47,822 nt of DNA from Alkalihalobacillus bogoriensis ATCC BAA-922. GTDB lineage: Bacteria > Bacillota > Bacilli > Bacillales > Bacillaceae_F. The notes beneath the pieces were generated by a model. That model worked only from the letters and a program-made list of their open reading frames with translations. It ran no database searches and was not told where the DNA came from. Both the position numbers and the translations under genes were made by a program. The DNA is taken from NCBI RefSeq assembly GCF_000621445.1, contig NZ_JHYI01000036.1, forward strand, positions 1 to 47,822. Direction: 5' to 3'. Shown here piece after piece: positions 10,387 to 34,844 of this stretch. The first letter of the stretch is position 1; the number at the start of each line of letters is the position of its first letter.

Positions 10387-10571
10387 TAGCGGACATCGTT
10401 CCGCTAATAGGTTAAAAAAGATCGAATGTAAAGTCGTATCGGACATCTGTTCCGTTAATGTCGCAAATTGAGAGAGAAACTCTTTAATAATTGTTAAGTA
10501 GTGGAATAGATGTCCGTTAAAAAAATAAATACAGGCAAAATCTAGTGTCATAACGGAACAGATGTCCGATA
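10387..10571. repeat. Four-hairpin intergenic repeat, copy A
   Basis: Four 20-21-nt units lie at 10387-10406, 10437-10457 (forward), 10499-10519 and 10551-10571 (reverse). The consensus TAACGGACATCTGTTCCGTT plus A is itself an inverted repeat with a 7-nt loop. Unit 1 has perfect 7-bp arms, TAGCGGA/TCCGCTA. Unit starts are 50, 62 and 52 bases apart, almost the same as in the copies at 17231 and 34658. No ORF runs through it. Confidence 0.85.
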
Positions 10572-10681
10572 GCGAAAGCTTCCCTTGACTACACCGATAA
10601 CATAAAAGCACAAAACTTGATATCCCGGACTGAAAAGGGGAAAATAACAAGGAAATGAAGTTTCGGCTTAGGAGGCTCGTT

Positions 10682-11737
10682 ATGGAAATAGGTATTAGTA
10701 CATTTGTAGAGACAACTCCTGATGTGAAAACAGGTGAAGTCAAAAGTCATGCTGAACGAATACGAGAGGTCGTTGAAGAAATTATCCTTGCTGACGAAGT
10801 CGGGTTAGATGTATTTGGTGTTGGTGAGCATCATCGCCAAGATTTTGCTGCGTCAAATCCTGCGGTTATTTTAGCAGCGGCGGCCCCACAAACGAAACAA
10901 ATTCGGTTAACAAGTGCCGTTACCGTACTTTCTTCGGCTGATCCAGTTCGGGTATTTCAAGATTTTGCAACACTTGATGGGATTTCAAATGGACGAGCTG
11001 AGATTATGGCTGGGCGTGGTTCATTTATCGAATCGTTTCCGTTATTTGGGTATGACTTGAAAGATTATGATGAGTTATTTCATGAGAAATTAGAGCTTCT
11101 TTTAAAAATATGTGAATCAGAAAAAGTAACGTGGGAAGGGGAATTTCGCCCTGCGATTGAAAATCTCGGAATTTACCCACGTCCTGTTCAAGAGCCATTA
11201 CCTGTCTGGATTGGGAGTGGTGGAAATACACAATCAGTAATCAGAGCCGGGATGCTAGGTTTACCGCTTGTGCTTGCTATTATTGGAGGAAGTCCAGTTC
11301 AATTTGCGCCACTCGTGAAATTATATGAACGAGCAGCTCTCCAAGCTGGACATGACCCAACGAAGCTTCCTGTCGCTTCACATTCCCATGGTTTTGTGGC
11401 CGAAACGACAGAAGAAGCGGCTGAGAAATATTTTGCACCAACACAGCAAGTGATGAATAAGCTCGGACAAGAGCGAGGATGGGGGTATTATGACCGGGCA
11501 AGTTATGATGCGGCACGAAGCTTTGATGGTGCACTGTATGTTGGAGATGCTCAAACAGTCGCTGACAAAATTATTCATTTACGAAAACAAGTAGGAATTA
11601 CTCGCTTTATGCTCCACGTCCCTGTAGGCTCCATGCCGCATGATGATGTAATGAAATCAATTGAATTATTAGGAACAGAGGTTGCCCCTCGAGTTCGTGA
11701 AGAAGTTTCGAAATGGGAAATAGAAAAGGAAAGCTAA
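10682..11737 (+). CDS. LLM-class (luciferase-like) flavin-dependent oxidoreductase
   Basis: A 351-residue single-domain bacterial-luciferase-like barrel. Typical family stretches are visible: VFGVGEHHRQDFAASNPAVI near the N-terminus, IRLTSAVTVLSSADPVRVF, and IMAGRGSFIESFPLFGY. These proteins use FMN or F420; in Bacillaceae FMN is usual. The substrate cannot be told from sequence. AGGAGG at 10670-10675 sets the start at 10682 rather than the upstream in-frame ATG at 10655. The gene stands alone between repeat copy A and a bidirectional terminator, so context gives no pathway. Confidence 0.88.
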   Translation: MEIGISTFVETTPDVKTGEVKSHAERIREVVEEIILADEVGLDVFGVGEHHRQDFAASNPAVILAAAAPQTKQIRLTSAVTVLSSADPVRVFQDFATLDGISNGRAEIMAGRGSFIESFPLFGYDLKDYDELFHEKLELLLKICESEKVTWEGEFRPAIENLGIYPRPVQEPLPVWIGSGGNTQSVIRAGMLGLPLVLAIIGGSPVQFAPLVKLYERAALQAGHDPTKLPVASHSHGFVAETTEEAAEKYFAPTQQVMNKLGQERGWGYYDRASYDAARSFDGALYVGDAQTVADKIIHLRKQVGITRFMLHVPVGSMPHDDVMKSIELLGTEVAPRVREEVSKWEIEKES

Positions 11738-11743
11738 ATGAAG

Positions 11744-11774
11744 AAGGTATCCGAGAATGCTCGGGTACCTTTTC
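11744..11774. terminator. Terminator between the LLM oxidoreductase and the HD gene
   Basis: The stem AAGGTATCCGAG and CTCGGGTACCTT has an AATG loop and T-rich sequence follows. The genes converge here, and the stem also works on the reverse strand. Confidence 0.8.
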
Positions 11775-11782
11775 GTTATTTT

Positions 11783-12757
11783 TTAAATGATGGTAAAGTA
11801 ATATTGTCGTTGTAACGATCGAATGGATTCCAACAACTGATGTGACTCATGACAAAGGGAAGTGAGTGGAATCCCGTCTACTAACGGTGATTTATCATAC
11901 ACTTTTTTGACATCCACTGTTCTTGTATTTTCACCTGAGACTTGTTGTACTGATATTTTTTCAGGGTAAAACATAATAATAGAAAGGAAATCATGAATCA
12001 GTTGAACATGACTGCTTGCTAACAATTGTATGAGTTCTTGGTTTGTTAGCCCTTTGATGACAGAAAGTTCAACATGATGATGCATAGCATAAACTTTGAT
12101 TGCTTCCGCTAATAAAACGTCTAGCGCTAACAATGTAGGATGAAGAAAGTGCGTATGGTCGAAATGGATCGCTTCCATTATCGTCTTGGCTGTATCGATA
12201 TCTGCTTCAACATAATGGTGATGAAATGTAATTTTTCGTATGATTTCAGCAGGATGTTTCATTCGTTTTCCGAGCATATAAGAATCACGGAGGAAACTGT
12301 CTAAATGGTCAGCGCTTAAATTATATGTTTTATGTGAAAGCGGAGAATCCATATTTAAAATAGCAATAATTCGTAATGGGTCAAACCCATATGTTTGCAA
12401 AATAGAACCAATGGCTTCGTCTTTTATTAAGGACTCGGTTAAACCATGATGATTAAATCCTAATGTGCGTTCAACCGCATGTGAAAAAGGAAGATGTCCG
12501 ATATCATGAAGAAGAGCAGCGAGCCGTAGTTCTTCTTCTTTTTGAAAGAAGGTAGAAATAATTGTCCATACACCAAGTGTATGCTCAAATCGACTATGCT
12601 TAGCTGAAGTCGTGAAAGAACCTGTTCCATAATGGGAAAGGAATTTCAGTCGTCGTACGACAGGGGATTGTAGCAGGTCACTTTCCCACGGATAAATCTC
12701 GAATGTCGTTTGGTAAAATGGGTCAGTAAATTGATTTTTGTTGGCTACGATGTACAT
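11783..12757 (-). CDS. HD-domain phosphohydrolase (dGTPase/SAMHD1-like)
   Basis: A 324-residue HD-superfamily protein. The metal-binding signature is complete: His59 in HSRFEHTLGVW, His84-Asp85 in ALLHDIGHLPFSH, and a later Asp in SADHLDSFLRD. The order H...HD...D and the flanking text resemble YwfO and SAMHD1-like dNTP triphosphohydrolases, but the protein is shorter than YwfO, so the substrate (dNTP or another phospho-compound) is uncertain. The start at 12757 is supported by AAAGGAGG 7 bases upstream; the reading frame continues upstream through a leader hairpin and is not used. Transcription comes from a perfect-consensus promoter with an overlapping palindrome. Confidence 0.87.
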   Translation of the reverse strand: MYIVANKNQFTDPFYQTTFEIYPWESDLLQSPVVRRLKFLSHYGTGSFTTSAKHSRFEHTLGVWTIISTFFQKEEELRLAALLHDIGHLPFSHAVERTLGFNHHGLTESLIKDEAIGSILQTYGFDPLRIIAILNMDSPLSHKTYNLSADHLDSFLRDSYMLGKRMKHPAEIIRKITFHHHYVEADIDTAKTIMEAIHFDHTHFLHPTLLALDVLLAEAIKVYAMHHHVELSVIKGLTNQELIQLLASSHVQLIHDFLSIIMFYPEKISVQQVSGENTRTVDVKKVYDKSPLVDGIPLTSLCHESHQLLESIRSLQRQYYFTII

Positions 12758-12782
12758 AAATTTTCCTCCTTTACAACGGAAA

Positions 12783-12822
12783 GGACCGGCTTCATATCCT
12801 GTTAAAGATACGAAACCGGCCC
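12783..12822 (-). promoter_or_regulatory. Leader stem-loop of the HD gene
   Basis: On the minus strand GGGCCGGTTTCGTATC pairs with GATATGAAGCCGGTCC over 16 bp, allowing three G-U pairs, with an 8-nt loop. It ends about 10 bases before the ribosome site AAAGGAGG. There is no T-run, so it looks like a 5' UTR structure acting on translation or stability rather than a terminator. Confidence 0.65.
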
Positions 12823-12866
12823 ATATTTGAGAGTGGCATGCAACCACGGTTTATCAGCCCGTAAAA

Positions 12867-12904
12867 TATATGTAAAATTATACATATAAATTAGTATCTG
12901 TCAA
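12867..12904 (-). promoter_or_regulatory. Consensus sigma-A promoter of the HD gene with overlapping palindrome
   Basis: On the minus strand TTGACA (12904-12899) and TATAAT (12882-12877) are both perfect, spaced 16 bp. The inverted repeat TATATGTA (12867-12874) and TACATATA (12881-12888), spacer AAATTA, covers the -10 box and start. A repressor site is inferred; the neighbouring ROK regulator is one candidate ligand. Confidence 0.75.
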
Positions 12905-12921
12905 TCAATATAATCGATACT

Positions 12922-12949
12922 TTGCTATTTTAGTGGAAATCGCTATACT
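12922..12949 (+). promoter_or_regulatory. Promoter of the ROK regulator gene
   Basis: TTGCTA (12922-12927) and TATACT (12944-12949) are separated by 16 bp. The start codon is 32 bases downstream of the -10 box. Confidence 0.6.
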
Positions 12950-12981
12950 AGAGCTATTATCGAAGTGTAGTAGGTGATGAA

Positions 12982-14148
12982 ATGTTAAAAGGATTTTTGG
13001 AAGACGATTCTATAAAAAATCAAATGTCAAAAAAAATATATCATCTCATTCATCAGCGGGGACCGATCACTAAAAATGACTTACTTCATTTAACGAAAAC
13101 AAAACAAACAACGTTAAATCGTTTTATGGATGACTTGGTACATTCGAATGTCATTGTAGAATGTGGATATGGGGAATCAAGTGGAGGGCGGCCACCTGTA
13201 TTATATAAAGTGAATGAAAAAGCAGCTTATATTATCGGAATTGATATTTCAAGAATTCAAACAAAGCTCGTATTAGTTAATCTTGCATATCATACAATTG
13301 AACAAACTTCTTTTGCAATGACAGAAAAGGAGACCCCTTCGATTGTTTTTGCAAAAATGAATCAGATTATTACCAAGTGGATTAGTGAGTATAATATAGC
13401 TTGGAACCAATTACTAGGCATAGGTGTTGGAACTGTAGGTCCCGTACAGCGAGAAGAAGGGGTTATCGTAAAGCCTGAAGCGTTTCTAGCTCCAAGATGG
13501 GAAAATGTACATGTCGCTCGACAATTACGTGAGTATTTCCCAGTAAAAATCATCGTCGATAATGGTGCGAACTCTGCTGTTGTCGCGGAGTATAGTCAAT
13601 ATCCATCTTATGAAAATATATTATATGTCATTGGTGGCTATGGGATTCGTTGTGGTGTGATTTGTAATGGTCAACTTCTACATTCAAAACTAGGAGATTC
13701 AAGTGCGTATGGTCATATTATTGTCCATGCTGGAGATACACCAACGACTAAAGGCAAAAAAGGCTCGCTTTCTCACTTTGCAACGTTTGGGGCTATGGTC
13801 AAAGAGTGGAAACAGACAATAAATGAAGAAAGGGACGTTACATTCTCGGATTTACTCTATGAGTTGAAACGGGGTAACCCGTCCGTCATCAAAATTGTCG
13901 AAAAGGCAGCTTATTACTATGGCATTGGGATAGCAAATATGGTGAATGTGCTTCATCCGGAATTAGTTGTATTACATGGTCACCTAATTTCAGAGTCAAA
14001 TTGGTATTATCAAGAGGTTGTGAAACAAGCAAAATCTCATTTGTATATTGAAGATAAAAGTTTAATAACATTTAGTAAGGGGACGTTTGGGGCAGATGCG
14101 ATTGCGATTGGAGCAGCAATCCAAGTGTTTCAGTCTTATTTTGGGTAA
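12982..14148 (+). CDS. ROK-family transcriptional regulator with degenerate sugar-kinase domain
   Basis: A 388-residue NagC/XylR-type protein. An N-terminal winged helix (about residues 15-75: GPITKNDLLHLTKTKQTTLN) precedes a ROK actin-like domain. The family sugar-binding and zinc motifs are altered: the ExGH motif is SAYGH (His245), and the CxCGxxGCLE zinc motif reads TPTTKGKKGSLSH with all three cysteines gone. The catalytic Asp of the NDAN motif is Gly195 (DNGAN). It is therefore a regulator, not a kinase, and its effector site has diverged. TAGGTG precedes the start. It is divergent from the HD gene, and the palindrome at 12867-12888 is a possible target. Confidence 0.85.
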   Translation: MLKGFLEDDSIKNQMSKKIYHLIHQRGPITKNDLLHLTKTKQTTLNRFMDDLVHSNVIVECGYGESSGGRPPVLYKVNEKAAYIIGIDISRIQTKLVLVNLAYHTIEQTSFAMTEKETPSIVFAKMNQIITKWISEYNIAWNQLLGIGVGTVGPVQREEGVIVKPEAFLAPRWENVHVARQLREYFPVKIIVDNGANSAVVAEYSQYPSYENILYVIGGYGIRCGVICNGQLLHSKLGDSSAYGHIIVHAGDTPTTKGKKGSLSHFATFGAMVKEWKQTINEERDVTFSDLLYELKRGNPSVIKIVEKAAYYYGIGIANMVNVLHPELVVLHGHLISESNWYYQEVVKQAKSHLYIEDKSLITFSKGTFGADAIAIGAAIQVFQSYFG

Positions 14149-14195
14149 AATTTCTTTACAGACGATTCATAAAAAAAATAAAGATTTATAGTTTT

Positions 14196-14240
14196 TTTAC
14201 CACTTTAAACCCTTTTGGGTAAAAGTATAAGTGTGGTAAA
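14196..14240 (+). promoter_or_regulatory. Stem-loop upstream of the chromate-transporter pair
   Basis: TTTACCAC (14196-14203) pairs with GTGGTAAA (14233-14240), with an inner ACCC-TTTT-GGGT hairpin at 14209-14220. It is 94 bases before the first chr gene and matches no riboswitch I know. It may be an operator or a leader structure. Confidence 0.4.
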
Positions 14241-14333
14241 CTAATAATAACTACATCTCTTTTTTTTACAAACTTTTTTCCGATTTGGTTAAAAGGTGAG
14301 AGGGAAAGGAAATGAGCAGAAAGAAGGGGTAAT

Positions 14334-14960
14334 ATGAAATCGGCGAAAAGCAGAATATTATGGCAGCTGTTCTGGTCATTTTTTAAAATAGGCCCTATTA
14401 CGTTTGGTGGAGGCTATGCGGTCATTCCTGTGATAGAGCGGGAGCTAGTTGATAAACAAAAATGGGTCAAGAAGTCTGAAATGGATGATGTCATTGCTGT
14501 CGCAAGTTCACTTCCAGGAGCCATTGCGATTAACTCAGCAACCTTTATCGGATATCGACTGGCTGGCATTCGTGGTGCCGTTGCAGCATTACTAGGAATC
14601 TTTTTACCTACTTTTTTAATTGTTATTGGGATAAGTATCGCTTTTTACCATGTTCAAGACCATCCTAAGGTAGAAGCAGCGTTCCAAGCGATTCGGATTA
14701 CGGTCATCGCACTTATCGTTTATGCAGCGTATTCAATCGGGAAAAAAGCGATATTTGATAAAACAACGTTATCAATCGTATCCGCATCGTTATTTTGCTT
14801 GCTTTTCTTACACATACATCCAGCTTTGTTAATTATAATTGGGATTTTCTTAGGCATTTTTATTATTCAGTGGAAAGAAAAATTAGGCTATCTTCAAAAA
14901 ACTGAGGAAACTAACCGAGAAGAAAGAAAATATGAGTGGTTTATGGGAGAAGGGATTTAA
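14334..14960 (+). CDS. Chromate transporter family protein, N-terminal-type half
   Basis: A 208-residue membrane protein of the short-chain CHR family, which occurs as paired half-size genes in Bacillus (ywrB/ywrA). The signature FFKIGPITFGGGYAVIPVIE lies near the N-terminus, followed by SSLPGAIAINSATFIGYRLAG and about five membrane helices. Paired CHR halves insert in antiparallel fashion and jointly export chromate in characterised examples; the natural substrate here is unknown. AAGGGG precedes the ATG. The second half follows after 2 bases. Confidence 0.9.
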   Translation: MKSAKSRILWQLFWSFFKIGPITFGGGYAVIPVIERELVDKQKWVKKSEMDDVIAVASSLPGAIAINSATFIGYRLAGIRGAVAALLGIFLPTFLIVIGISIAFYHVQDHPKVEAAFQAIRITVIALIVYAAYSIGKKAIFDKTTLSIVSASLFCLLFLHIHPALLIIIGIFLGIFIIQWKEKLGYLQKTEETNREERKYEWFMGEGI

Positions 14961-14962
14961 GC

Positions 14963-15502
14963 ATGGTTTTACTTGAATTGTTTTTTGCCTTTTTTGTTAT
15001 TGGCATCGTTTCTTTTGGTGGAGGCTATGCGATGATCCCCATCATTGAGTTAGAAGTTATGAAACAAGGGTGGATGACATCACAGCAATTCACCGATATT
15101 ATTGGATTAGCCGGGATGTCACCGGGGCCTATTGCAACGAATAGTGCCATTTTTGTAGGACACCATGTTGCAGGTATTCCTGGTGCTATTGCAGCAGGGT
15201 TTGGAATGGTGTTGCCGTCGTTTTTATTTGTCATTTTGATTTCAATCTTTTTTTATAAAATGAATGATAATAAGCATGTTAAATCAGCTTTTTATGGTTT
15301 GCGGCCGATAATTACGGCCCTCATTGTGTATGCCGCGATTCGATTTGCGATTGTAAATGATGTTATTTCCCCTCTTTCATGGAATACAGTCTCTGTTTTC
15401 TTTATTTTCTTTTTCTCTTTATTCGCGCTAACAAAGTGGAAGTTGCATCCAGTTTTTGTTATCCTTTTATCAGGTTTAGTTGGTATCGCGATATTTTCAT
15501 AA
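14963..15502 (+). CDS. Chromate transporter family protein, C-terminal-type half
   Basis: A 179-residue partner of the preceding gene, with the parallel motifs FFVIGIVSFGGGYAMIPIIE and GMSPGPIATNSAIFVGHHVAG. The start at 14963 is set by AGAAGGG at 14948-14954, inside the end of the upstream gene. The in-frame ATG at 14936 would overlap the first gene by 25 bases and lacks a good ribosome site. The two are surely co-translated. No chrB-like regulator is nearby. Confidence 0.9.
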   Translation: MVLLELFFAFFVIGIVSFGGGYAMIPIIELEVMKQGWMTSQQFTDIIGLAGMSPGPIATNSAIFVGHHVAGIPGAIAAGFGMVLPSFLFVILISIFFYKMNDNKHVKSAFYGLRPIITALIVYAAIRFAIVNDVISPLSWNTVSVFFIFFFSLFALTKWKLHPVFVILLSGLVGIAIFS

Positions 15503-15628
15503 TTTTTTGGAATGATAATGGTTTTTAATTAGATAAATGAAGGAGATATGTTATATACTATGATGTAGTATTTTACATTCTCTTTTTTTGTTTGTAGGAA
15601 AAGGAATGTATAAAATGAGGGGTTTATG

Positions 15629-17233
15629 ATGGTAGATAGTATTGACAATTATATAAAAGTCTCTCACCAAAGATGCTTGAATGAGTTCAACATGACTCCT
15701 AAAGATAGGTTAATTCCAAAAGTTTGTATTACGAAAAATAAAATTAAGGAAATCAAGGATAATTTAGGTAATGTCATTTCAGTAGCAAGAAAATTTATGA
15801 CAAAGCTTATTTCTGACTTAGAACATACACCTGTGTTAATTGTCATTTCAAATAATGAAGGCATTATTTTAGAATTGTACGGAGATGAATCGATAAAAGG
15901 TCAAATTGAGTCTTTAGGATTATCGATAGGGATTCAGTTTACCGAAGAAGAGCTTGGAACGAACAGTGTATCATTAGCACTTCATTTAGATCAGCCGATT
16001 CAAATGATTGGAAAAGATCACTTTCATGAGAGCTTACATGAAAGTGCGTGTTTCTCTGTTCCTTTTACAAATGGGGGGGAAGTAGAGGGTACAATTTCTG
16101 TCATGATGGCAGCACAAAATGCAAGTTCATTTCATCTAGGATTATTAAAATCAGCTGTTGATTCCATTGAAAGAGAAGTAAAAGTAAATAAGCAAAACAA
16201 AGAACTATTAATTCTCAATCAAGTTATCGTGGAAAATAGTCGAAATGGAATTATCATTACGAATGAAGATGGGTTAGTTATTGAATTAAACCCTTATGCT
16301 GAACAAATATTAGGATGTAATAAATATGATGTGATGCATCAATCGGTCAAAACGATTGACTCTATTGGACATTATATGAAAGATGTAATAGAAGGAAAAA
16401 TGAAGTACGAGGATGTTGAGATTAAAGTTGCTGACAAAATCCTACTTTTCGATTCGTATCCAATTTATGATGACCGCCATGAAATCATTGGTGCATTCGG
16501 ACAGCTTCGTAATATAACGGAACGGCTATTATTAGAAAAACAACTCATGGCGAGTGAAAAATTATCAGATATCGGAAAGATTAGTGCGGGGTTAGCGCAT
16601 GAAATTCGTAATCCATTAACGTCGATTATCGGATTAATGCAGTTGTTTAAAGCCTATCTTAAACCTGAAGATAAAAAGCTTGAAGACTATTTCCGTATTA
16701 TCTTTAGTGAACTAGAACGGATTAAAAGTTTAGTTCAGCAGTTTGTATTAATGGCTAAGCCGAATCAAAGGGAAATAACAAAGTCTTATACCCAGATTCA
16801 AGAACTTATGCAAGATACGATTACCTTAATGGAAAGTCAGCTTTCAAGTAAAAACATTCAGCTTTCCTTTGATTGCACATATAACGACAAGACTTACGTC
16901 GATAAAGATAAACTAAAGCAAGTGTTTATCAATATATTGCAAAACAGTTTAGATGCAACAGGAGAAGATGGAAAGGTCTATATTTCGGTACGTTTAAGTG
17001 AAGATAACCAATTTATTGAAATTAAAATCGAAGACAATGGCATTGGGATGGATGAAGAAACCGTGAAAAAATTGGCGACCCCGTTTTTCTCAACAAAAGA
17101 AAATGGCTTAGGGCTTGGAATGGCAATGAGTTATAATATTATTGAACTGCATAAAGGAAAAGTCTTTGTTCACAGCGAGAAAGGAAAAGGAACGACCTTT
17201 ACAATATGGTTACCAACGAACGGTTCGCACTAA
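15629..17233 (+). CDS. Soluble sensor histidine kinase with AcoR-like GAF and PAS domains
   Basis: A 534-residue cytoplasmic kinase without membrane helices. The N-terminal about 190 residues (RCLNEFNMTPKDRLIPKVCI ... EEELGTNSVSLAL) resemble the GAF sensor region of AcoR/DhaR sigma-54 activators. A PAS domain follows (about 200-310: NGIIITNEDGLVIELNPYAE), then HisKA with the phospho-acceptor His324 in LAHEIRNPLTSI, then HATPase_c with DNGIGMD, STKENGLGLG and GKGTTFTIWLP. The kinase core is of the KinA-KinE type that feeds the Spo0 phosphorelay. No response regulator is adjacent. GAGGGG favours ATG 15629 over 15626. The TAA stop is the first triplet of repeat copy B. Confidence 0.88.
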   Translation: MVDSIDNYIKVSHQRCLNEFNMTPKDRLIPKVCITKNKIKEIKDNLGNVISVARKFMTKLISDLEHTPVLIVISNNEGIILELYGDESIKGQIESLGLSIGIQFTEEELGTNSVSLALHLDQPIQMIGKDHFHESLHESACFSVPFTNGGEVEGTISVMMAAQNASSFHLGLLKSAVDSIEREVKVNKQNKELLILNQVIVENSRNGIIITNEDGLVIELNPYAEQILGCNKYDVMHQSVKTIDSIGHYMKDVIEGKMKYEDVEIKVADKILLFDSYPIYDDRHEIIGAFGQLRNITERLLLEKQLMASEKLSDIGKISAGLAHEIRNPLTSIIGLMQLFKAYLKPEDKKLEDYFRIIFSELERIKSLVQQFVLMAKPNQREITKSYTQIQELMQDTITLMESQLSSKNIQLSFDCTYNDKTYVDKDKLKQVFINILQNSLDATGEDGKVYISVRLSEDNQFIEIKIEDNGIGMDEETVKKLATPFFSTKENGLGLGMAMSYNIIELHKGKVFVHSEKGKGTTFTIWLPTNGSH

Positions 17234-17416
17234 CGGACATTTGTTCCTCTAATATCGTAAACATCTCTGTTTTTCAAACACTATCGGACACTGGTTCCGT
17301 TAAATTAATAGAAATAGTAGAATTTCATAGTTGTTTCTGGTGAGTAGCGGAATAGATGTCCGAAAGAAATGGAAAAAAGCCCATGTAGAGCAAAATAGCG
17401 GAATAAATGTCCGTTT
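17231..17416. repeat. Four-hairpin intergenic repeat, copy B
   Basis: Units lie at 17231-17251, 17282-17302 (forward) and 17345-17365, 17396-17416 (reverse), with start-to-start distances of 51, 63 and 51. Units 3 and 4 both contain TAGCGGAATA and ATGTCCG. The element begins with the stop codon of the upstream kinase gene. Confidence 0.85.
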
Positions 17417-17471
17417 GGAAACAGCAACTACTCCCAAGTTGCTGTTTATTCACTTAAAGTAAAAATCCATT

Positions 17472-17500
17472 TCGACAGATAAGGAAAATTCAGGTATAAT
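17472..17500 (+). promoter_or_regulatory. Promoter of the second kinase gene
   Basis: TCGACA (17472-17477), a 17-bp spacer and a perfect TATAAT (17495-17500). The predicted start near 17507 lies downstream of the in-frame TTG/ATG at 17500/17503, so those codons cannot be the gene start. Confidence 0.75.
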
Positions 17501-17520
17501 TGATGAAAAAGGACAAATTT

Positions 17521-27009: not shown

Positions 27010-27013
27010 TGAA

Positions 27014-27052: not shown

Positions 27053-27069
27053 AAAAGATAAGAAAAATT

Positions 27070-27188: not shown

Positions 27189-27313
27189 ACTTCAAGGAAA
27201 TATTACCGGTATAAATAGTATTAAACAATGAGTAGAAAAAGACGATATAAACAAAAGAAAACAATCTTTTTATGATGAGATAGATGCGTAATGGGACGGA
27301 GAGGAGGATGACA

Positions 27314-28063: not shown

Positions 28064-28121
28064 AATAAGCTTTCACAACTTCACTGCTAAATCAAAATTT
28101 TTATGCTTTCTTATCTTTTAA

Positions 28122-28165
28122 AAAAAGCATCCTAACGGTTATTTAAACCGAAAGGATGCTTTTTT
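28122..28165. terminator. Bidirectional terminator between motS and the carboxypeptidase gene
   Basis: AAAAAGCATCCT (28122-28133) and AGGATGCTTTTT (28153-28164) form a perfect 12-bp stem, with an inner CGGTT/AACCG helix. A-run and T-run serve the two convergent genes. Confidence 0.9.
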
Positions 28166-28166
28166 C

Positions 28167-29207
28167 TTAATTCAGATGCTCTTCAATATATTCTTCAAGT
28201 GTAATGTCCAATTCGAATATGTTAGCGGCATGCTCTTTGCCAACAAAGCGAAGATGCCAAGGTTCATACGTGTATCCTGTTATATCCTCTAGGCCTTCTG
28301 GGTAGCGAATAATGAATCCATATTTATGTGCATTTTCTGCAACCCATTTTCCTTCTTCTGTCTTCCCGAAATCTTGAGTGAGTTGGTAACCGACACTTTC
28401 ACTTGTGACATCCATCGCTAATCCGGTTTGATGCTCACTTTCTCCTGGAAAGGCACTAAACTGATTAGCCCATTGGAATCCTTCTCGTAAAACATAGTTC
28501 GGAAAAATATGCTTTTGGGTAGCAAAGCTTCGATAGCCTGAAAGTGCTTTAAGCTTAATTCCATTGTTGTAACTATCTTTAAAAAGCTCTTCTAATGCTT
28601 CGGCTGCTTCTTCTCGTAAATGATTTCTTTCTGCTTTATCTTCATAAACAAATGCAACATCAGGAATGACGAGGTTGCTTGGTGTATAATCTCGAGGAAG
28701 TCGGTATTGCTTGTTTATAAGGACGAGTATGTCATCTGGGTTTTTAACTTCTAGTTTTTTACTTGAGTCATAAGGGATTTCTTGCATCTCAGTATTAGAT
28801 ACCCAGCCCTCTAAATCATTTGCTGATATCTTAAACCAACCTTCTGTTTGCTCAATAACAAATACATGGTCTCCAAAATCAAGTGTGCCAATGACATCTG
28901 ATGTTTTATCTTTTTTTTCATAAACGGATACACCAGAATTTGATAATGCTAATGCTTCAAATAGCATCGATTCTGGAAGCTCAACAGCAGAAGCTAATAA
29001 TTCCTCTTCCCTTTTCTCAACTTCTTCCATTTCTTCGTTTGTTTTGTCTTGAAGTTGGTCGGGTTTTTCTTTTTTCTCAGGCTCTGAATCCTTCGCCTTT
29101 TCTTCAACCATATTTGCCTCTCCTATTGTATTAACGGAAGTTTCTGTATATAGATAACCTAAGATTAATAAAATCGGAATCATCACGGCGACTATCCATT
29201 TAACCAT
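28167..29207 (-). CDS. D-alanyl-D-alanine carboxypeptidase (VanY/LdcB, M15B) with SH3-like domain
   Basis: A 346-residue envelope enzyme. The N-terminal signal anchor (MVKWIVAVMIPILLILGYLY) is followed by a Glu/Lys-rich coiled stretch, a bacterial SH3 domain (about 88-140: GVSVYEKKDKTSDVIGTLDF), and an M15B peptidase domain with zinc ligands in SEHQTGLAMDV and EPWHLRF. It trims the terminal D-Ala of peptidoglycan stem peptides outside the membrane, like Bacillus YodJ. GGAGG lies 7 bases before the ATG. It converges on motS through a shared terminator. Confidence 0.9.
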   Translation of the reverse strand: MVKWIVAVMIPILLILGYLYTETSVNTIGEANMVEEKAKDSEPEKKEKPDQLQDKTNEEMEEVEKREEELLASAVELPESMLFEALALSNSGVSVYEKKDKTSDVIGTLDFGDHVFVIEQTEGWFKISANDLEGWVSNTEMQEIPYDSSKKLEVKNPDDILVLINKQYRLPRDYTPSNLVIPDVAFVYEDKAERNHLREEAAEALEELFKDSYNNGIKLKALSGYRSFATQKHIFPNYVLREGFQWANQFSAFPGESEHQTGLAMDVTSESVGYQLTQDFGKTEEGKWVAENAHKYGFIIRYPEGLEDITGYTYEPWHLRFVGKEHAANIFELDITLEEYIEEHLN

Positions 29208-29384
29208 TTTTTCGCCTCCACTTATTATCTACTAGACTATCATTTTACTTGTATTTGATAGATTTTTAAAGAGGGTGAATATGTGAAATTATTGGGTTCT
29301 AGAAAAAAGGATGTGCTGTTAAAAATTAGCGTGTTTTAATATGAAAAATATGCTATATTTATAGTAAATACGAACTAAAAATAG

Positions 29385-29475
29385 TAGAAAAAGGCAAACT
29401 TTTTGAAAAAAGAGGACGCAAAGCTACGGATCTAAGGTTGCGCAACAACTATGATAGCCGGGTTTCCTAACATTA
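29385..29475 (+). ncRNA. Cyclic-di-GMP-I (GEMM) riboswitch aptamer
   Basis: The GEMM-I core is clear: AGGCAAAC, a GAAA tetraloop helix, then GAGGACGCAAAGCTACGG, TCTAAGG, a TTGCGCAA hairpin and TATGATAGCCGGGTTTCC. GCTA pairs with TAGC in the second helix. A terminator follows within 10 bases and the gene downstream is a GGDEF cyclase, so the sensor watches the product of its own gene. A weak promoter with extended -10 TGCTATATT lies at 29351-29359. Confidence 0.92.
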
Positions 29476-29476
29476 G

Positions 29477-29506
29477 GCGACACTACTAGTGGTCGTTTTT
29501 TTTTAG
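29477..29506 (+). terminator. Riboswitch expression-platform terminator
   Basis: CGACAC pairs with GTGGTCG (one bulged G) around a TACTA loop, followed by eight T. It overlaps the end of the aptamer region. Whether ligand turns expression on or off cannot be read safely. Confidence 0.75.
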
Positions 29507-29604
29507 ATGTTAGTTAACATATACTGTTTAAACGATGGGACTTGGTCAATTTCTTATGTTTAACACTGAAGAAACATAAGGAAAAAGAGAAGGAAGTGGT
29601 TGCA

Positions 29605-30681
29605 ATGAAAAAATTGCTTGTAAAGGCATTACGGTCAAATCATGCGCTAGAGGTGTTATTTTCTTCATTGCGCTGGTTTTTTTTACTAATGTCTGCCATC
29701 GTTTTTTCGACACAAATGAATGATAATACAGAAACATACTTGATTGTCTTATTTGTAGCTTTAGTCACTTTTGGCGTAATATACATGGGATTATCTGATT
29801 ATTGCCTTTATCGAAAACCTGAAAACTCCTCAATATACAAAATAATGACCAAAGGTGGCCCGTTTTTCGATTATATCGCGTTCTTATGTTTAGTGGCTTT
29901 AACGGGAGGTCATGAGAGTCCATTATTTCCAATTAGTTATTTAATAATTTTACATGTATGTGTTTATTGGCGATATAAAGGAGCTATGATTTGTGCTGGA
30001 CTTCTAATCATCGGTTTTACAGTGGTTGTTCTTTTACACGGTTTTCCGACTGAATTATCAAGTCAAATCTCCTTTTACACAAAGCTGATATATTTGTTTT
30101 TAATCGGGTTTCTCGGAGGGATTATTGTTTCTAGGGAACGAATTCATTATGAAGAAAAGTCGGAATATGAAAGTATGGCTAAACAAGATTATTTAACAGG
30201 TTTATTCAACCACCGCTCATTCCAAGAAGATTTAAAAACAGCCCAAATGAACCGAAAGAACAGCTTTCTTGTTTTAGCTGATATTGACCATTTTAAAAAA
30301 GTGAATGATGCATTTGGCCATGTTATGGGTGATAAGGTGTTACGAACGATTGGCCATATCATATCTGATATAGTACCAGAAGATATCGGTAAAGGTTATC
30401 GCTATGGAGGAGAAGAGTTTGCCATATTATTATATATAGATGATATCGAACTCACAGATTTTTATTTAAGAGCAATCAAAAAAAAGATCGAAAAAACAAT
30501 CTTTCATACAGATGAAGGTGAATTTTCAGTAACGATGAGTTTTGGTTGTAACCAAATCAAAACCGAAGGAAGTCGTGATATTGTCGAGTGTGTTGATAAA
30601 TTGCTGTATGACGCCAAACAGCTGGGAAGAAATCGCATTGTTTATGAACCAACAATATGTATAGAAGAAGCAACCCACTAA
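29605..30681 (+). CDS. Membrane diguanylate cyclase (GGDEF)
   Basis: A 358-residue protein with about six membrane helices (residues 15-190) and a C-terminal GGDEF domain (about 200-350): DYLTGLFNHRSF, DIDHFKKVNDAFGH and the active-site RYGGEEFAILL. The usual inhibitory RxxD motif before GGEEF is absent (PEDIGKGY stands there), so product inhibition may be lacking. It makes cyclic-di-GMP from two GTP. The preceding GEMM riboswitch would give feedback at the RNA level instead. AGGAAGTGG sets the start at 29605; the longer frame begins at a TTG at 29542. Confidence 0.9.
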   Translation: MKKLLVKALRSNHALEVLFSSLRWFFLLMSAIVFSTQMNDNTETYLIVLFVALVTFGVIYMGLSDYCLYRKPENSSIYKIMTKGGPFFDYIAFLCLVALTGGHESPLFPISYLIILHVCVYWRYKGAMICAGLLIIGFTVVVLLHGFPTELSSQISFYTKLIYLFLIGFLGGIIVSRERIHYEEKSEYESMAKQDYLTGLFNHRSFQEDLKTAQMNRKNSFLVLADIDHFKKVNDAFGHVMGDKVLRTIGHIISDIVPEDIGKGYRYGGEEFAILLYIDDIELTDFYLRAIKKKIEKTIFHTDEGEFSVTMSFGCNQIKTEGSRDIVECVDKLLYDAKQLGRNRIVYEPTICIEEATH

Positions 30682-30706
30682 GGTTTAATTAGTTGGGTTG
30701 CCTTTT
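30670..30706. terminator. Bidirectional terminator between the cyclase and DUF1287 genes
   Basis: GCAACCCACT and AGTTGGGTTGC form a stem followed by CTTTTT. It overlaps the last codons of the cyclase gene and of the convergent DUF1287 gene. Confidence 0.85.
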
Positions 30707-31404
30707 TCATAAGAGAACCGAAAGTGACCAGCAATTGGCGTGCTAAAAGAAGTAAGTTTTACTTCAGCTGCAAATGGAGGATTGTTATGGATCATATAAG
30801 GTGTGCCATCCTTTGCCCGTTTATCGGATATAATTCCAACATGGTGATATCCTTCTAAGAACACGACAATATCTCCTGGTTGCCACTGTTTTAAATTTTC
30901 AACATCATTTGGAATTAATTCTGTTGTTAATGACTCAGTGTGGCGAGTGAAAAAAACAAACTGGTTAGGGACTCGACGAAAATCAATATTTGGGTCAGGT
31001 TGCCCTTGTACGCGTGGATATTGATCAACTTCATTTGATATATCTTCGTCCATTAGTTCCTTTAAGTTAATGTCAGCTCCTAGTAAGCCGCGCCAAATGA
31101 CATCCGTACATACTCCTTCATTTTCTGGTGGGTAACCGCCAGCATAATAAGCACTTTTGTATTTTGTTCGTTGCTCAACTTCTTTTCTTGCTGCTTGCAC
31201 AATGTCTATGGGGTCTGGAACCCCATTTTGATTTTCGTCAACTAGTGAATATGTGCTTTCTACATTAAGTCGAGTTTGAAAAGGATTTTCAAAATGTAGA
31301 CCGACATAATCAAGGAGAATTGCTTTTTTATAAAAAAAAGAAAAAGAAAATAAAGTGATAAAAAGAACGGCAATAAGTAAAGTGACCCGTCGTTTTTTCG
31401 TCAT
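30685..31404 (-). CDS. DUF1287-family secreted or membrane-anchored protein
   Basis: A 239-residue protein: basic start, one hydrophobic segment (VTLLIAVLFITLFSFSFFY), then a DUF1287 domain with NlpC/P60-like catalytic features, the Cys in NEGVCTDVIWRGL, the His in YHHVGIISD and IHNNPP. Members are thought to be cysteine amidases or peptidases acting in the envelope; the reaction is not established. Two ATGs are adjacent at 31407 and 31404. GAGGTGG is only one base from the first, so 31404 is preferred. Confidence 0.82.
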   Translation of the reverse strand: MTKKRRVTLLIAVLFITLFSFSFFYKKAILLDYVGLHFENPFQTRLNVESTYSLVDENQNGVPDPIDIVQAARKEVEQRTKYKSAYYAGGYPPENEGVCTDVIWRGLLGADINLKELMDEDISNEVDQYPRVQGQPDPNIDFRRVPNQFVFFTRHTESLTTELIPNDVENLKQWQPGDIVVFLEGYHHVGIISDKRAKDGTPYMIHNNPPFAAEVKLTSFSTPIAGHFRFSYEKGNPTN

Positions 31405-31503
31405 CATCCACCTCTGATATTTCTAAATATTTACTTTTCTTATAACCATTTTAGCACTGCTTGAATATAGTGGGAAGGTGAATCTTTTCAAGGAGTGGTT
31501 TCT

Positions 31504-31926
31504 ATGATCGTTAGGCTAGCAACAGAACAAGAGCGGGAACTCATTCAACAGTATGAAAGCGTTGTACAGGTGGAAGCGACGAATGGATACGGTGATGGCT
31601 CGATTTCAAACCATACAAACTGGGATTACCCTTGTTATATTTGTATAAATCAAAACATAATCGTAGGTTGGATTGTTTTGGCGAAAACAAAAGCAGCGTT
31701 TACTGAAGAAATAACGGGTATGATAATAGAGCTATATGTTTTTCCTCAATACCGAAAATCAGGTTGCGGGACATTGTTAATGGAATATGCACTCGCTTAT
31801 TTTAAGCAGTGTGGGATTTCAAAAGTCCAGTTAAACGTATTTTCAGGAAATCCGGCAAAACGGCTCTATGAAAAATTAGGCTTTCAAGATGTATCAACAT
31901 TAATGGAAATTAAATGGGGCGAGTAG
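31504..31926 (+). CDS. GNAT-family N-acetyltransferase
   Basis: A 140-residue GNAT fold protein. The acetyl-CoA-binding motif is YVFPQYRKSGCGTLLMEYAL, followed by VQLNVFSGNPAKRLYEKLGF, the usual C-terminal strand-helix. The acceptor substrate is unknown. AAGGAG lies 8 bases before ATG 31504; the upstream in-frame GTG overlaps that site. The glycosylase gene follows after 13 bases, so the two are probably co-transcribed. Confidence 0.85.
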   Translation: MIVRLATEQERELIQQYESVVQVEATNGYGDGSISNHTNWDYPCYICINQNIIVGWIVLAKTKAAFTEEITGMIIELYVFPQYRKSGCGTLLMEYALAYFKQCGISKVQLNVFSGNPAKRLYEKLGFQDVSTLMEIKWGE

Positions 31927-31939
31927 GAGGGATTTTCGA

Positions 31940-32521
31940 TTGGACATATTACCACAGTCCTATTATGAACAACCAACATTACAGTTAGCAAAGTCGCTTC
32001 TTGGAAAACGATTAGTTAAAGAAACGACAGATGGGTTAGCTTCTGGCTGGATTGTGGAAACAGAAGCTTATATCGGCCCTCATGATCAAGCTGCACATAG
32101 CTTTGGGAACCGTCGGACAAAAAGAACGGAAGTCATGTTTGGACCACCAGGTTATGTTTATACGTATGTGATGCACACCCATTGTTTAGTGAATGTTGTA
32201 AGTGGTAAAATAAATCAACCAGAAGCCATTTTAATTCGAGCGGTGGAACCATACGAAGGCATACACCTAATCGGTAAAAGAAGACCAAATATAAAGAAAG
32301 AAAAAGAAAGAACAAATGGCCCAGGAAAGCTTACAAAAGCATTAGGTATCGATATGTCTGATTACGGGGGAGCCTTTTTTGAACGACCTCTTTATATTAC
32401 AGAAGGAAAAAAGGTTGAAGGAATAAAAGAAGGGGTCAGAATTGGGATTCCGAATAGCGGGGAAGCAAAAATGTATCCATGGAGATTTTTGCTGGACAAG
32501 AACAAGTTTGTTTCCAAATAG
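31940..32521 (+). CDS. DNA-3-methyladenine glycosylase (AAG/MPG type)
   Basis: A 193-residue alkyladenine DNA glycosylase. The active-site stretch VETEAYIGPHDQAAHS contains the catalytic Glu42 and the base-flipping Tyr44, matching Glu125 and Tyr127 of the human enzyme; NGPGKLTKALGI is also typical. It removes 3-methyladenine and hypoxanthine in base-excision repair. It starts with TTG at 31940 behind AGGAGGG. It is the Bacillus YxlJ type. Confidence 0.92.
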   Translation: MDILPQSYYEQPTLQLAKSLLGKRLVKETTDGLASGWIVETEAYIGPHDQAAHSFGNRRTKRTEVMFGPPGYVYTYVMHTHCLVNVVSGKINQPEAILIRAVEPYEGIHLIGKRRPNIKKEKERTNGPGKLTKALGIDMSDYGGAFFERPLYITEGKKVEGIKEGVRIGIPNSGEAKMYPWRFLLDKNKFVSK

Positions 32522-32657
32522 AAACCGCAGTCGCTTGTGATAAAAAAATGTAGATGAAGTAGACTAAAAGGATATTGAGCTACATAAAAAAGTAAGATAT
32601 GATGGATCAGAAATCGGTAGTAACGATAAATTTATTTGATGAAGTGAGTTGGATGAA

Positions 32658-33695
32658 ATGAATGTTCCAAAACAATTACATTATTATATGCCTGCGGAAT
32701 GGACAAGTCATGAACGAACGTTAATATCATGGCCTGTTCAACAGTCAATGTGTTTCCCTGATGATTATCAAACTGTAACAAAAGGCTATGAGCAGCTTAT
32801 ACGGGCAATGGCTGACTTTGAACCTGTCACTGTCCTTGTAAATGAAGAAGATATCGAAAATGTTAAACAGTTGTTCTCAGATGTTGAAGCGGTAGACATT
32901 GTTCATATTGAACATAATGATGCCTGGCTCCGTGACAATGGACCAACGTTTATTGTAAATGATAAAGGTGAAAGGGCAGGAATAAACTGGATTTTTAATG
33001 CATGGGGAGAAAAATATTCTCCATGGGATTTAGATAATAAAGTTGCACCAGCTATATTACAGCATTTTAATATTAAACAATTTGATGCGCCAATCGTAAT
33101 GGAAGGGGGTTCTTTTCATGTCGATGGTGAAGGGACATTATTGACAACAGAAGAATGCTTGTTAAATCCAAATCGGAATTCAGATAAGTCAAAAGAAGAG
33201 ATTGAACAATTGTTGAAAGACTATCTTCATATTGATAAAGTCATTTGGTTAAAACAAGGGTTAAGTGGTGATGAAACAGATGGCCATGTCGATAACGTAG
33301 CATGCTTTGCTACTCCAGGAAAAATATTGATTCAAGTATGTAATGACCCTGAAGATGAAAATTATCAGATTACACAAGAAAATCTGGAAATATTAAAGAA
33401 TGCAACAGATGCAAAAGGAAGAAAAATTGACATTATTGAGATAAAGCAGCCTCCTCAGCAACATCATGATGGAAGCCGATTAACATTAAGCTACTTAAAT
33501 TTTTACTTTGTAAATGGTGGCATTATCCTACCTGTATTTGGAGGAGAAGCAGCAGTCACAGATGAAGAGGCGATAGCGGTGCTAAAACAAACATTTCCAG
33601 ACAAGGAAATTCGCACAATTGATGGAATGGCCGTCATTAAAGAAGGTGGTAATGTACACTGTACAACCCAACAAATGATTGCCGGAAATGAATAA
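32658..33695 (+). CDS. aguA: Agmatine deiminase
   Basis: A 345-residue member of the guanidine-modifying superfamily. Seen: ERTLISWPVQ, DAWLRDNGPTF, MEGGSFHVDGEGTLLTTEEC, DGHVDNVACF and the catalytic Cys335 in GGNVHCTTQQ. It converts agmatine to N-carbamoylputrescine and ammonia in the cytoplasm. The start is taken at ATG 32658, with GAAGTGAG upstream; the TTG at 32649 is less likely. aguB follows after 13 bases. Confidence 0.94.
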   Translation: MNVPKQLHYYMPAEWTSHERTLISWPVQQSMCFPDDYQTVTKGYEQLIRAMADFEPVTVLVNEEDIENVKQLFSDVEAVDIVHIEHNDAWLRDNGPTFIVNDKGERAGINWIFNAWGEKYSPWDLDNKVAPAILQHFNIKQFDAPIVMEGGSFHVDGEGTLLTTEECLLNPNRNSDKSKEEIEQLLKDYLHIDKVIWLKQGLSGDETDGHVDNVACFATPGKILIQVCNDPEDENYQITQENLEILKNATDAKGRKIDIIEIKQPPQQHHDGSRLTLSYLNFYFVNGGIILPVFGGEAAVTDEEAIAVLKQTFPDKEIRTIDGMAVIKEGGNVHCTTQQMIAGNE

Positions 33696-33708
33696 AGGGG
33701 TGAATGAA

Positions 33709-34587
33709 GTGCGTCTAGTTAAAGTAGCAACAACTCAAATGAGTTGTTCATGTGATATCCAAGAAAATATTGAAAAAGCAGAAAAACTTGTTCGTGAAGC
33801 CGCATGTCAAGGAGCTCAAATTATTTTATTACAAGAGCTTTTTGAAACACCTTATTTTTGTCAAAAAGAAAAATCAACCTATTATGATTATGCTACAGAA
33901 TTGGAAAGCAATAGGGCAGTGACCCATTTTAAAGCTATTGCAAAAGAATTAAAAGTGGTATTACCGATTAGCTTTTATGAAAAGAAAAATAACGCAAGAT
34001 ATAATTCTCTTGCTGTCATTGACGCTGATGGTGAAATCCTCGGGAAATACCGGAAAAGTCATATTCCTGATGGTCCTGGTTATGAAGAGAAATTTTACTT
34101 TAATCCAGGAGATACTGGATTTCAAGTGTGGAAAACGAGGTATGGGAAAATTGGTGTAGGGATATGTTGGGACCAATGGTATCCTGAATCAGCAAGGTGT
34201 ATGACGTTAATGGGAGCAGAGCTTCTCTTTTTTCCAACAGCGATAGGATCGGAACCGCAAGATCAATCCATTGATTCTAAAGACCATTGGCAAATGTGCA
34301 TGTTAGGACATGCCGCAGCAAACTTAGTTCCTGTAATTGCTTCTAATCGAATTGGTGTGGAAGAAGATGACGAGTCAAAAATTACGTTTTATGGCTCTTC
34401 CTTTATTGCTGGACCACAAGGAAATAAAATCGAAGAAGCCAATCGAACAGATGAAACTGTATTAGTTACGGAGTTTGATTTAGATGAGTTAGAAAACCAA
34501 CGAATCGAATGGGGCATTTTCAGAGACCGTCGTCCTGACTTATATAAAATTATCACTTCGTATGATGGAGAGTTGATTATAAAGTAA
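33709..34587 (+). CDS. aguB: N-carbamoylputrescine amidase
   Basis: A 292-residue nitrilase-superfamily amidase with the full Glu-Lys-Cys triad: Glu43 in LLQELFET, Lys116 in YRKSHIPD and Cys153 in GICWDQWYPE. It hydrolyses N-carbamoylputrescine to putrescine, ammonia and CO2, completing the path begun by AguA. The GTG at 33709 is chosen because AAAGGGG lies 8 bases upstream; ATG 33688 would overlap aguA. No arginine decarboxylase is in the window. Confidence 0.94.
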   Translation: MRLVKVATTQMSCSCDIQENIEKAEKLVREAACQGAQIILLQELFETPYFCQKEKSTYYDYATELESNRAVTHFKAIAKELKVVLPISFYEKKNNARYNSLAVIDADGEILGKYRKSHIPDGPGYEEKFYFNPGDTGFQVWKTRYGKIGVGICWDQWYPESARCMTLMGAELLFFPTAIGSEPQDQSIDSKDHWQMCMLGHAAANLVPVIASNRIGVEEDDESKITFYGSSFIAGPQGNKIEEANRTDETVLVTEFDLDELENQRIEWGIFRDRRPDLYKIITSYDGELIIK

Positions 34588-34604
34588 ATACTAATGATGT
34601 TTTG

Positions 34605-34643
34605 CCCGTTAACCATAAGCTTGTGATGGTCAACGGGTTTTTT
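34605..34643 (+). terminator. Terminator of aguAB
   Basis: CCCGTTAACCAT and ATGGTCAACGGG form a stem with one mismatch, followed by six T. Confidence 0.9.
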
Positions 34644-34657
34644 GCACTAGCTATTTC

Positions 34658-34844
34658 TAACGGACATCTGAGCCACTATTTTGTAAAAAAATCTTGTTTA
34701 CCCGATGTGCTATTGGACATGAGTTCCGTTACTTAAGAGAAATCGAAGCATTTTGTCAAGATTTACATCAAGTAGCGGAATAGATGTCCGATACAACATG
34801 AAAAGGCTTAGTTTTCTATCATATAACGGAACCGATGTCCGAAC
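34658..34844. repeat. Four-hairpin intergenic repeat, copy C
   Basis: Units lie at 34658-34678, 34711-34731 (forward) and 34773-34793, 34824-34844 (reverse), with start-to-start distances of 53, 62 and 51. Unit 1 is worn on its right side (TGAGCCACTA); unit 3 keeps TAGCGGAATAGATGTCCGAT. It sits right behind the aguAB terminator. Confidence 0.85.

Follow-up and report, generated by a model that had tools for sequence, protein, structure and literature searches.

The repeat analysed here, four palindromic units within about 185 bp, is with moderate confidence best read from its sequence as a DNA-level platform of several sites for a putative sequence-specific DNA-bending protein, and not as an RNA hairpin. 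The element has a fixed geometry, spacers phased with the DNA helix, no pairing covariation, positions common to two species and a partial polarity along the leading strand. A role in local chromosome structure at gene ends, as a bend, bridge or boundary, is the most likely one, and we put it forward tentatively.

Copies in the window

The window, the whole stretch of 47,822 nucleotides from Alkalihalobacillus bogoriensis ATCC BAA-922 (genome G000), holds three copies of the element, as a preliminary description had reported, each with two forward units followed by two reverse ones. G002 below is the genome of a sister species.

10387..10571, forward strand: copy A, with units at 10387-10406, 10437-10457, 10499-10519 and 10551-10571; complete orthologue at the same place in G002
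10407..10550, no strand: spacer stretches of copy A, enclosing units 2 and 3; letters free
17231..17416, forward strand: copy B, with unit starts at 17231, 17282, 17345 and 17396; orthologue in G002
34658..34844, forward strand: copy C, with unit starts at 34658, 34711, 34773 and 34824; unit 1 degenerate; orthologue in G002
401..421, forward strand: relic, a lone outer unit remaining from an element whose G002 counterpart is complete

Unit-start distances are the fixed ones first noticed: 50-62-52 bp in copy A, 51-63-51 in copy B and 53-62-51 in copy C. The unit is a palindrome of the general form TARCGG-N9-CCGYTA, with variants, whose outer letters (TAR/YTA) are conserved on one side and variable on the other; unit 1 of copy A is one base shorter (20 nt), and two bases ahead of unit 2 of copy C align with gaps in the G002 orthologue. 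All three copies do adjoin gene ends in the list of open reading frames (genes being ORF calls of at least 90 aa): copy A lies 44 bp and copy C 70 bp downstream of a stop codon, and copy B overlaps the stop codon of a histidine kinase gene (15626-17233). A relaxed unit pattern has 29 matches in the window on the two strands together, where 6.7 are expected; 0 of 100 shuffles have as many as 29.

Abundance, spacing and distribution

Isolated copies or variable spacing, like missing covariation, had been named in the preliminary description as grounds for abandoning a selected structure; copies proved very many and their spacing fixed. The unit pattern matches the whole genome 828 times (411 and 417 by strand), the reversed pattern 4 times (1 and 3), and a degenerate inner unit pair occurs at 120 places. 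Among same-strand unit pairs up to 400 bp apart, counted with no preset geometry, 135 of 172 are separated by exactly 51 bp and at least 148 by 50-52 bp. This unconstrained count is the proper test of spacing, because the copy finder admitted only spacings of 50-52, 60-64 and 50-52 bp, with a slight preference for 51/62-63/51, and its spacing counts are partly so by construction. Unit clusters are exactly forward-forward-reverse-reverse (++--) in 121 of 161 cases; tandem and extended arrays also occur. The sets of 119 and 114 copies used below omit those with more than 14 total mismatches, copy C included, and the stretches of G000 and G002 were taken mostly around listed matches, so that their copy density is not representative.

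The same geometry of about 51/62/51 bp is seen again in Paenibacillus, Cohnella, Rossellomorea and Cytobacillus, and elsewhere with other unit cores, so that cores differ between genomes under a constant spacing; the exceptions are one 45 bp spacing in Paenibacillus humicus L065 and L240, whose inner spacing is longer by about 5 bp. The element is found in several orders. Within the order of the host, 29 of 397 genomes match the strict unit, 10 of them with a single match, a level that the reversed-pattern control also reaches in 11 genomes. A sequence profile matches 31 of 199 genomes. Profile counts, both strands included, cover 18 genomes mostly chosen as carriers; G270 has 98 matches, and the highest counts are lower bounds (at least about 147). 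Searches of plasmids and phages gave no useful match. The single matches in unrelated taxa from a broad contig scan and the 8 from a viral scan look like chance. No paper in the open-access literature matched the unit cores, and the titles and opening lines of abstracts listed there mention no such element, a weak negative.

Phased spacers and purifying selection

The claim that the spacers are not conserved holds for their letters and fails for their A/T content, which oscillates with a period of about 10.2 bp, both inside a species and from one species to the next, a property of the family-wide profile and not of copy A alone. Over 68 copies, the Fourier power of the A/T profile is 26.0 at 10.2 bp, 15.7 at 10.0 and 8.2 at 10.5, against 1.3 at 9.5 bp and 1.4 at 11 bp. 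This peak is partly due to the unit spacing, because 10.2 equals 51/5, and the spacer-only profiles are cleaner: those of 45 elements from other species correlate with those of G000/G002 at r = 0.75/0.79/0.82, with shifted controls of at most 0.37 for the outer spacers S1 and S3, and with some shifted profile scoring as high (0.79) for the inner spacer. Predicted curvature, from a crude wedge-angle model, exceeds the mean of spacer-shuffled versions in 56 of 68, 33 of 46 and 40 of 45 elements.

Orthologues bear out the view that fixed spacing with free spacer letters reflects selection, as do the unit-pair distances. Across 17 orthologous pairs of G000 and G002, 41 of 1428 unit sites have changed, compared with 133 of 1710 spacer sites (p = 9e-10). 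Rates were conditioned on one genome, and the reverse run made on that account with 20 pairs gave 61/1679 and 159/2010 (p = 3e-8); units evolve at less than half the spacer rate. Within spacers, changes from A/T to G/C number 7/369 at A/T peaks versus 36/609 elsewhere (p = 0.003), and 7/429 versus 36/742 in the other direction (p = 0.005). At 51-150 bp out, flanking DNA is probably coding for the most part, and 130 of its 3392 sites differ, slightly above the rate of the units. Of 50 clusters in G000, 5 found no place in G002; the inter-flank length agreed within 6 bp for 19, and the comparison uses only these (17 of them ++--), which biases indel rates low. Purifying selection acts on the units and on the phasing.

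Polarity

Element polarity follows the leading strand in most stretches, not all. Between convergent genes, as called from ORFs, 24 copies follow it versus 7. The polarity comes mainly from some regions: the negative-skew stretches of G000 give 6 versus 23, one region alone 1 versus 11. In the negative-skew stretches of G002, where copies overlap the G000 orthologues and fall outside the count of 24 versus 7, just 1 of the 4 signed copies runs with the leading strand. The Chi site of B. subtilis is AGCGG; as a candidate cause of the polarity, Chi fits units 3-4 and not unit 1.

Alternative explanations

The preliminary description proposed that RNA or single-stranded DNA could fold as one long arm or as four hairpins with kissing loops. 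The loops of units 1-2 are indeed complementary to those of units 3-4, as a mere consequence of unit orientation, and pairing is no better than in shuffles: 84.3% of long-arm cells are paired against 84.3% shuffled (covariation score 0.093 against 0.093) and 80.5% of four-hairpin cells against 80.9%, with no pairing between or within spacers among the family copies. Covariation across copies is essentially absent, and it does not place the element among structured or cis-regulatory RNAs; weak covariation between unit 1 and unit 4 is seen at two single positions (z = 2.7 and 3.6), at one of which the inner pair is negative (z = -3.2), and hairpin position 3:19 pairs below chance (z = -2.8, -1.2, -1.0 and -2.5). 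We therefore regard as improbable a 3'-UTR element whose transcript would fold in either form to stabilise mRNA or end transcription, even though its units are inverted repeats, its copies lie close downstream of stop codons and are over-represented in the gaps of convergent gene pairs (46 of the 108 copies classed, versus 207 of 1197 gaps by ORF calls, p = 6e-9), and those two positions covary. An excess of U.G over C-A at one inner-pair position (26 versus 4 in 49 gene-oriented copies) at first suggested an RNA-specific wobble, which we rejected: it is confined to that position, the balance of G.U and C-A being even at the others (30 versus 32), and it follows the leading strand even between convergent genes, where the element keeps its polarity. 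A terminator-like hairpin already precedes copy A, a T-tailed inverted repeat was seen by eye only upstream of copy C and was not picked up by a scan, and no Rfam family reaches its gathering score over the window copies, copy B alone giving matches, with scores far below. Extrusion as a cruciform, or as single-stranded hairpin DNA at replication targeted by a structure-specific enzyme, would suit the recurrence of the arms TARCGG/CCGYTA among several unit types and the mostly leading-strand polarity; we consider it very improbable, given the below-chance pairing at 3:19 and since hairpins do not require phased A/T in the spacers.

A non-autonomous mobile repeat, MITE- or BIME-like, is a more serious contender, though on present evidence an unlikely one. 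The ++-- units would be subterminal sites of a transposase acting in trans, geometry and bending would serve its synaptic complex, and copies would persist or decay at the ends of genes, where an insertion is nearly harmless. High copy number, the patchy distribution and the tandem and extended arrays agree with this, as does a second family. Beyond their units, copies of family I are seldom alike: with orthologues counted in, 79 of 7021 pairs match at E<0.01; the 20 copies of family II (8 in G000 and 12 in G002, some orthologous) resemble each other there, being 88-94% identical to the query copy, and keep the geometry of family I. This similarity implies spread as well, something a pure array of sites does not account for. 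The search for empty sites, suggested earlier, turned up two losses between G000 and G002 that leave a relic unit and are deletions, and one family II copy present in G002 and absent from the corresponding place in G000; it is nested within another repeat, so that this is no clean empty site. Against mobility, 114 family I and 20 family II copies show no clear target-site duplication (repeats of 2-6, 8 and 9 bp, scanned at 34 x 24 boundary offsets), the plasmid and phage searches yielded none, and the orthologues are under purifying selection on units and phasing. A Y1 transposase or RAYT, which in REP/BIME systems is dedicated to the repeats and flanked by them, is not a likely partner, as its presence does not track the element: PF01797 occurs in 15 of 16 genomes, among them G005 and G010, which show no elements, and was not found in G270, which has them, and the 12 Y1 loci inspected, none of them a RAYT-like gene from G000 or G002, lack units. 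No autonomous version was seen; a transposon with units at both ends was rejected, the cluster list containing no evident ++ ... gene ... -- arrangement.

Comparison with known systems

Wrapped multi-site complexes, such as those at transposon ends, phage att sites and gyrase sites, combine sites on one face of the helix with phased A/T stretches and bending. By its sequence, the element resembles them in these respects, its bending being predicted, and differs in having hundreds of dispersed chromosomal unit sites and no known protein. Membership among classical MITEs, bcr1 or REP/BIME repeats is not supported. MITE, RUP and BOX repeats share with it dispersal without coding capacity and, in family II, modular, nested copies, but it lacks a clear target-site duplication and its internal sites keep fixed helical distances across genera. 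Nor does it fit a CRISPR array, with its purely direct repeats, unique foreign spacers and cas genes: half of the units here are inverted, and the spacers have an A/T pattern in common. The bcr1 repeats of the Bacillus cereus group, whose target duplication is TTTAT, are also dispersed non-coding chromosomal repeats of the 150-190 bp class in Bacillus relatives; the present element, compared with bcr1 by description only, differs in its unconserved family I letters, the lack of a clear target duplication and its presence in several orders. As for bcr1, it is a single sequence family of 147-167 bp (PMC2267715). REPs and BIMEs of enterobacteria and pseudomonads are likewise high-copy extragenic palindromes in regularly spaced groups behind genes; they are bound by several proteins, with BIME palindromes alternating in orientation (PMC2817692), and REPs associated with RAYTs carry a GTAG (or CGTC) tag at one end of the palindrome (PMC3733652). 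The element here is ++-- instead of alternating and carries no such tag, a Y1 transposase does not track it, its spacers are free in letters but helically phased, and its cores vary between genera.

Discussion

On the reading as a protein-bound platform, each palindromic unit would bind the putative protein, probably as a dimer. Four sites about 5, 6 and 5 helical turns apart would all lie on one face of the helix, with the A/T-rich spacer stretches in phase (about 10.2 bp), and the roughly 185 bp would curve or wrap when protein fills the sites and its dimers come into contact. It is possible, although we hold this more tentatively, that these elements represent a class of chromosomal wrap sites in Bacilli that has not been described before, read by a DNA-organising protein, either ancient or spread horizontally, whose specificity may have changed repeatedly between genera (ACATNNGTT, ACTCAGAGG, AAAANTTTT) while the 5-6-5-turn architecture and the phased spacers stayed fixed, and present in genomes such as this one in a hundred or more copies at gene ends, polar to replication.

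Repeat families are usually recognised by their letters; here it is a distance and a rhythm of composition that are conserved across orders of Bacilli, while the letters and even the recognition core vary. Because many genomes have the element and many do not, the gene of any protein partner should be findable through correlation with gene content. If the element is read by a protein, it would constitute a new dispersed chromosome-structuring system, with an abundance like that of BIMEs.

Geometry of the repeat and drift of its units

The three copies reported in the preliminary description were found in place in the window, each with two forward units followed by two reverse units (++--), together with an additional unit:

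10387-10571, copy A
17231-17416, copy B
34658-34844, copy C
401-421, extra unit, the remnant of an element that a sister species has in full

A relaxed unit pattern matches the window 29 times against 6.7 expected, a number reached in 0 of 100 shuffles. The fixed spacing claimed for the units is borne out without preset geometry: among 172 same-strand unit pairs within 400 bp, 135 have a distance of precisely 51 bp, and the range 50-52 bp takes in at least 148. A full-copy finder, run on 1.64 Mb of the window's own genome (G000) and the congeneric G002 and allowing only spacings of 50-52/60-64/50-52, returned 119 full copies, with 51 in 115, 62 or 63 in 109, and 51 in 108, respectively. The exact ++-- order holds in 121 of 161 unit clusters; one Paenibacillus humicus element has a spacing of 45 bp instead of 50-51. 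Compound clusters (-++--+ and -++--++--+) were seen in G000 (stretch L093, 11913-12175) and the orthologous G002 region, the L093 element being flanked at 39 bp by additional single units.

With up to two mismatches, the unit occurs 411+417 times in the 5.0 Mb of G000 (1+3 for the reversed pattern), and 120 places carry a degenerate inner unit pair. At up to one mismatch, G002 has 675 matches, the congeneric G001 has one, and four sister-genus genomes have none. Of 397 genomes in the order, 29 match the strict unit and 19 of these do so repeatedly; single matches are about as frequent as the reversed control, present in 11 genomes. Across 398 genomes of the class, 6 contain the degenerate inner pair and none the control; a sequence-only profile made from 38 copies finds a match in 31 of 199 from the order (E <= 1e-5), and a scan of named genomes matched 34 stretches. 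Full or near-full elements of the same geometry occur in Paenibacillus, Cohnella, Rossellomorea, Cytobacillus, Calidifontibacillus, and others, and Ammoniphilus has three units; some elements of these genera carry additional units outward at 48-51 bp. Arrays of three to five forward or four reverse units, with such outward additions, were seen in P. humicus (L044 7502, L054 4782) and Paenibacillus sp. FSL A5-0031 (L066 5734).

A unit-independent scan, which scores self-similarity at the element distances only (threshold 70), gave no matches at control spacings in its first test; later stretches yielded two, each isolated. It found elements with drifted units in G001; the units of the sister-genus genome G004 read like TAGCGGACTCAGAGGCC-TTA, in five distinct elements at 50-51/62/51 (scan register corrected), and three elements of another carrier genome, G525 (L235, L247, L255), have a third unit type, TAACGGAAAA-TTTTCCGTTA, at 51/62/51. 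Because these elements keep their distances with other units, spacing is mostly retained while the recognition core varies. The third type coexists with another in G525; of the other elements shown there, L240 has a middle part about 5 bp longer, and L243 could not be read.

Constraint and A/T phasing

G000 and G002 share the locations of many elements. Among 50 clusters, 19 agree in inter-flank length to within 6 bp and the remainder differ by more, apart from 5 that had no assignable place. In 17 clean orthologous pairs, 41/1428 sites differ in units, compared with 133/1710 in spacers and 144/1677 in the adjacent 50 bp, with 0, 14, and 36 gaps; farther out, in DNA that is probably largely coding, 130/3392 sites differ. 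Conditioned on the other genome, 20 pairs give 61/1679 for units and 159/2010 for spacers.

The mean A/T content of 68 copies rises and falls rhythmically along units and spacers, with a Fourier power of 26.0 at a period of 10.2 bp and of about 1.3 at 9.5 or 11 bp; beyond the element the profile is more or less level. Since 10.2 is 51/5, the spacer-only profile is the better test of phasing. This profile in 45 elements of other species correlates with that of G000/G002 at r 0.75, 0.79, and 0.82; shifted controls reach 0.36-0.37 in the two outer spacers and, at some shift, 0.79 in the inner one, presumably a whole period. Ten elements at loci above 50% GC still give 0.58-0.73. The earlier view of the spacers as unconserved holds for their letters, copies of the main set (family I) being seldom alike outside the units (79/7021 pairs at E<0.01, true orthologues included), but not for their A/T rhythm, which other species share. 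A/T-to-G/C changes number 7/369 at A/T peaks vs 36/609 elsewhere in spacers, and 7/429 vs 36/742 in the reverse direction; total substitution rates at peaks and troughs (p 0.24 and 0.04) are weaker evidence. Judged from these alignments, units and phasing both look constrained, in keeping with the proposed selection on a fixed architecture. By a simple, crude curvature model, the predicted bend exceeds the mean of spacer-shuffled versions in 56/68, 33/46, and 40/45 elements.

Placement and polarity

With genes from our own ORF calls, copies prefer convergent gene ends: gaps classed by flanking gene directions as RL (convergent), RR, LL, and LR hold 46, 27, 26, and 9 copies, against a background of 207, 383, 396, and 211 gaps. 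Five other copies lie inside an ORF and one at an edge. The element is asymmetric. When copies are turned to the leading strand, as judged from GC skew, 90 of them have T and 22 have C at position 19 of unit 2, compared with 45 T and 69 C at the mirrored position of unit 3 (p 3e-10); the corresponding asymmetry of units 1 and 4 is small (p 0.04). Polarity follows the leading strand in 24 vs 7 cases between convergent genes (p 0.003), in 32 vs 10 when convergent, divergent, and opposed cases are combined, and in 3 vs 2 opposed cases alone. It is uneven in negative-skew stretches, where 11/12 follow in one G000 region, 12/17 in the other G000 stretches, and 1/4 in G002. Replication and dominant transcription direction are not fully separable as its source.

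What the element may be

Folding as RNA or single-stranded DNA, suggested in the preliminary description, is not supported by the alignments. For one long arm, 84.3% of cells pair and covariation scores 0.093, the same as in shuffles (gap-free alignment of 38 copies); for four hairpins 80.5% pair, vs 80.9% in shuffles. Permutations on 119 copies show weak positive covariation between units 1 and 4 at positions 11 and 19 (z 2.7, 3.6) and negative values at position 19 for units 2:3 and 2:4 (z -3.2, -3.5). Spacers pair neither with one another (1302 pairs vs 1336 expected) nor internally, and no Rfam family reaches its gathering score over the window copies, copy B scoring far below it only. We consider an RNA element very improbable.

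A mobile element whose transposase builds a nucleoprotein complex is a possibility that we rate as unlikely. A second set of copies (family II) has the 51/62/51 geometry, other unit cores, and conserved spacers; sampled DNA holds 20 copies that are 200 nt or longer (8 in G000, 12 in G002, some orthologous), of which 19 are 88-94% identical to the query copy. Examples, with 17 more places, are:

L109 10763-10947
L105 3035-3219
L098 922-1106

One family II copy in G002, nested in another repeat, is missing from G000. Neither family shows clear target duplications, and the distribution of Y1 transposases does not track the element. Some neighbours a few kb apart (L099 14922, 17294, 18708; L121 17992, 19387; L113 10132, 13066) have one or two spacers in common and others not, as local duplication or conversion would produce. 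Several family II elements adjoin or sit nested in a separate dispersed repeat, which is among the other features of the window:

2-127, Y1 (IS200-type) transposase, a C-terminal fragment bordering the contig edge
27055-27188, 28059-28128, 41518-41583, 47560-47629, dispersed repeat (TTTTGGTCTAGYAGYGAAGCTTTGAAAGCTTATTC with GAAAAGACGCTCC...CGTTTTT arm), both orientations
29383-29470, riboswitch of the c-di-GMP-I class (87 bits), preceding the gene at 29542
35312 and 37615, EAL/GGDEF genes

The element has a fixed architecture under constraint, and we infer from it a protein, a wrapping, and a role. We lean, by a little, toward a platform that a protein bends or wraps. The features shared by the elements are those of a nucleoprotein site: palindromic sites for recognition, several to an element and facing the same side of the helix; phased flexible DNA joining them; constraint on both; letters free elsewhere; and site specificity drifting between genera. 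Such a platform and a mobile element would differ mainly in who benefits.
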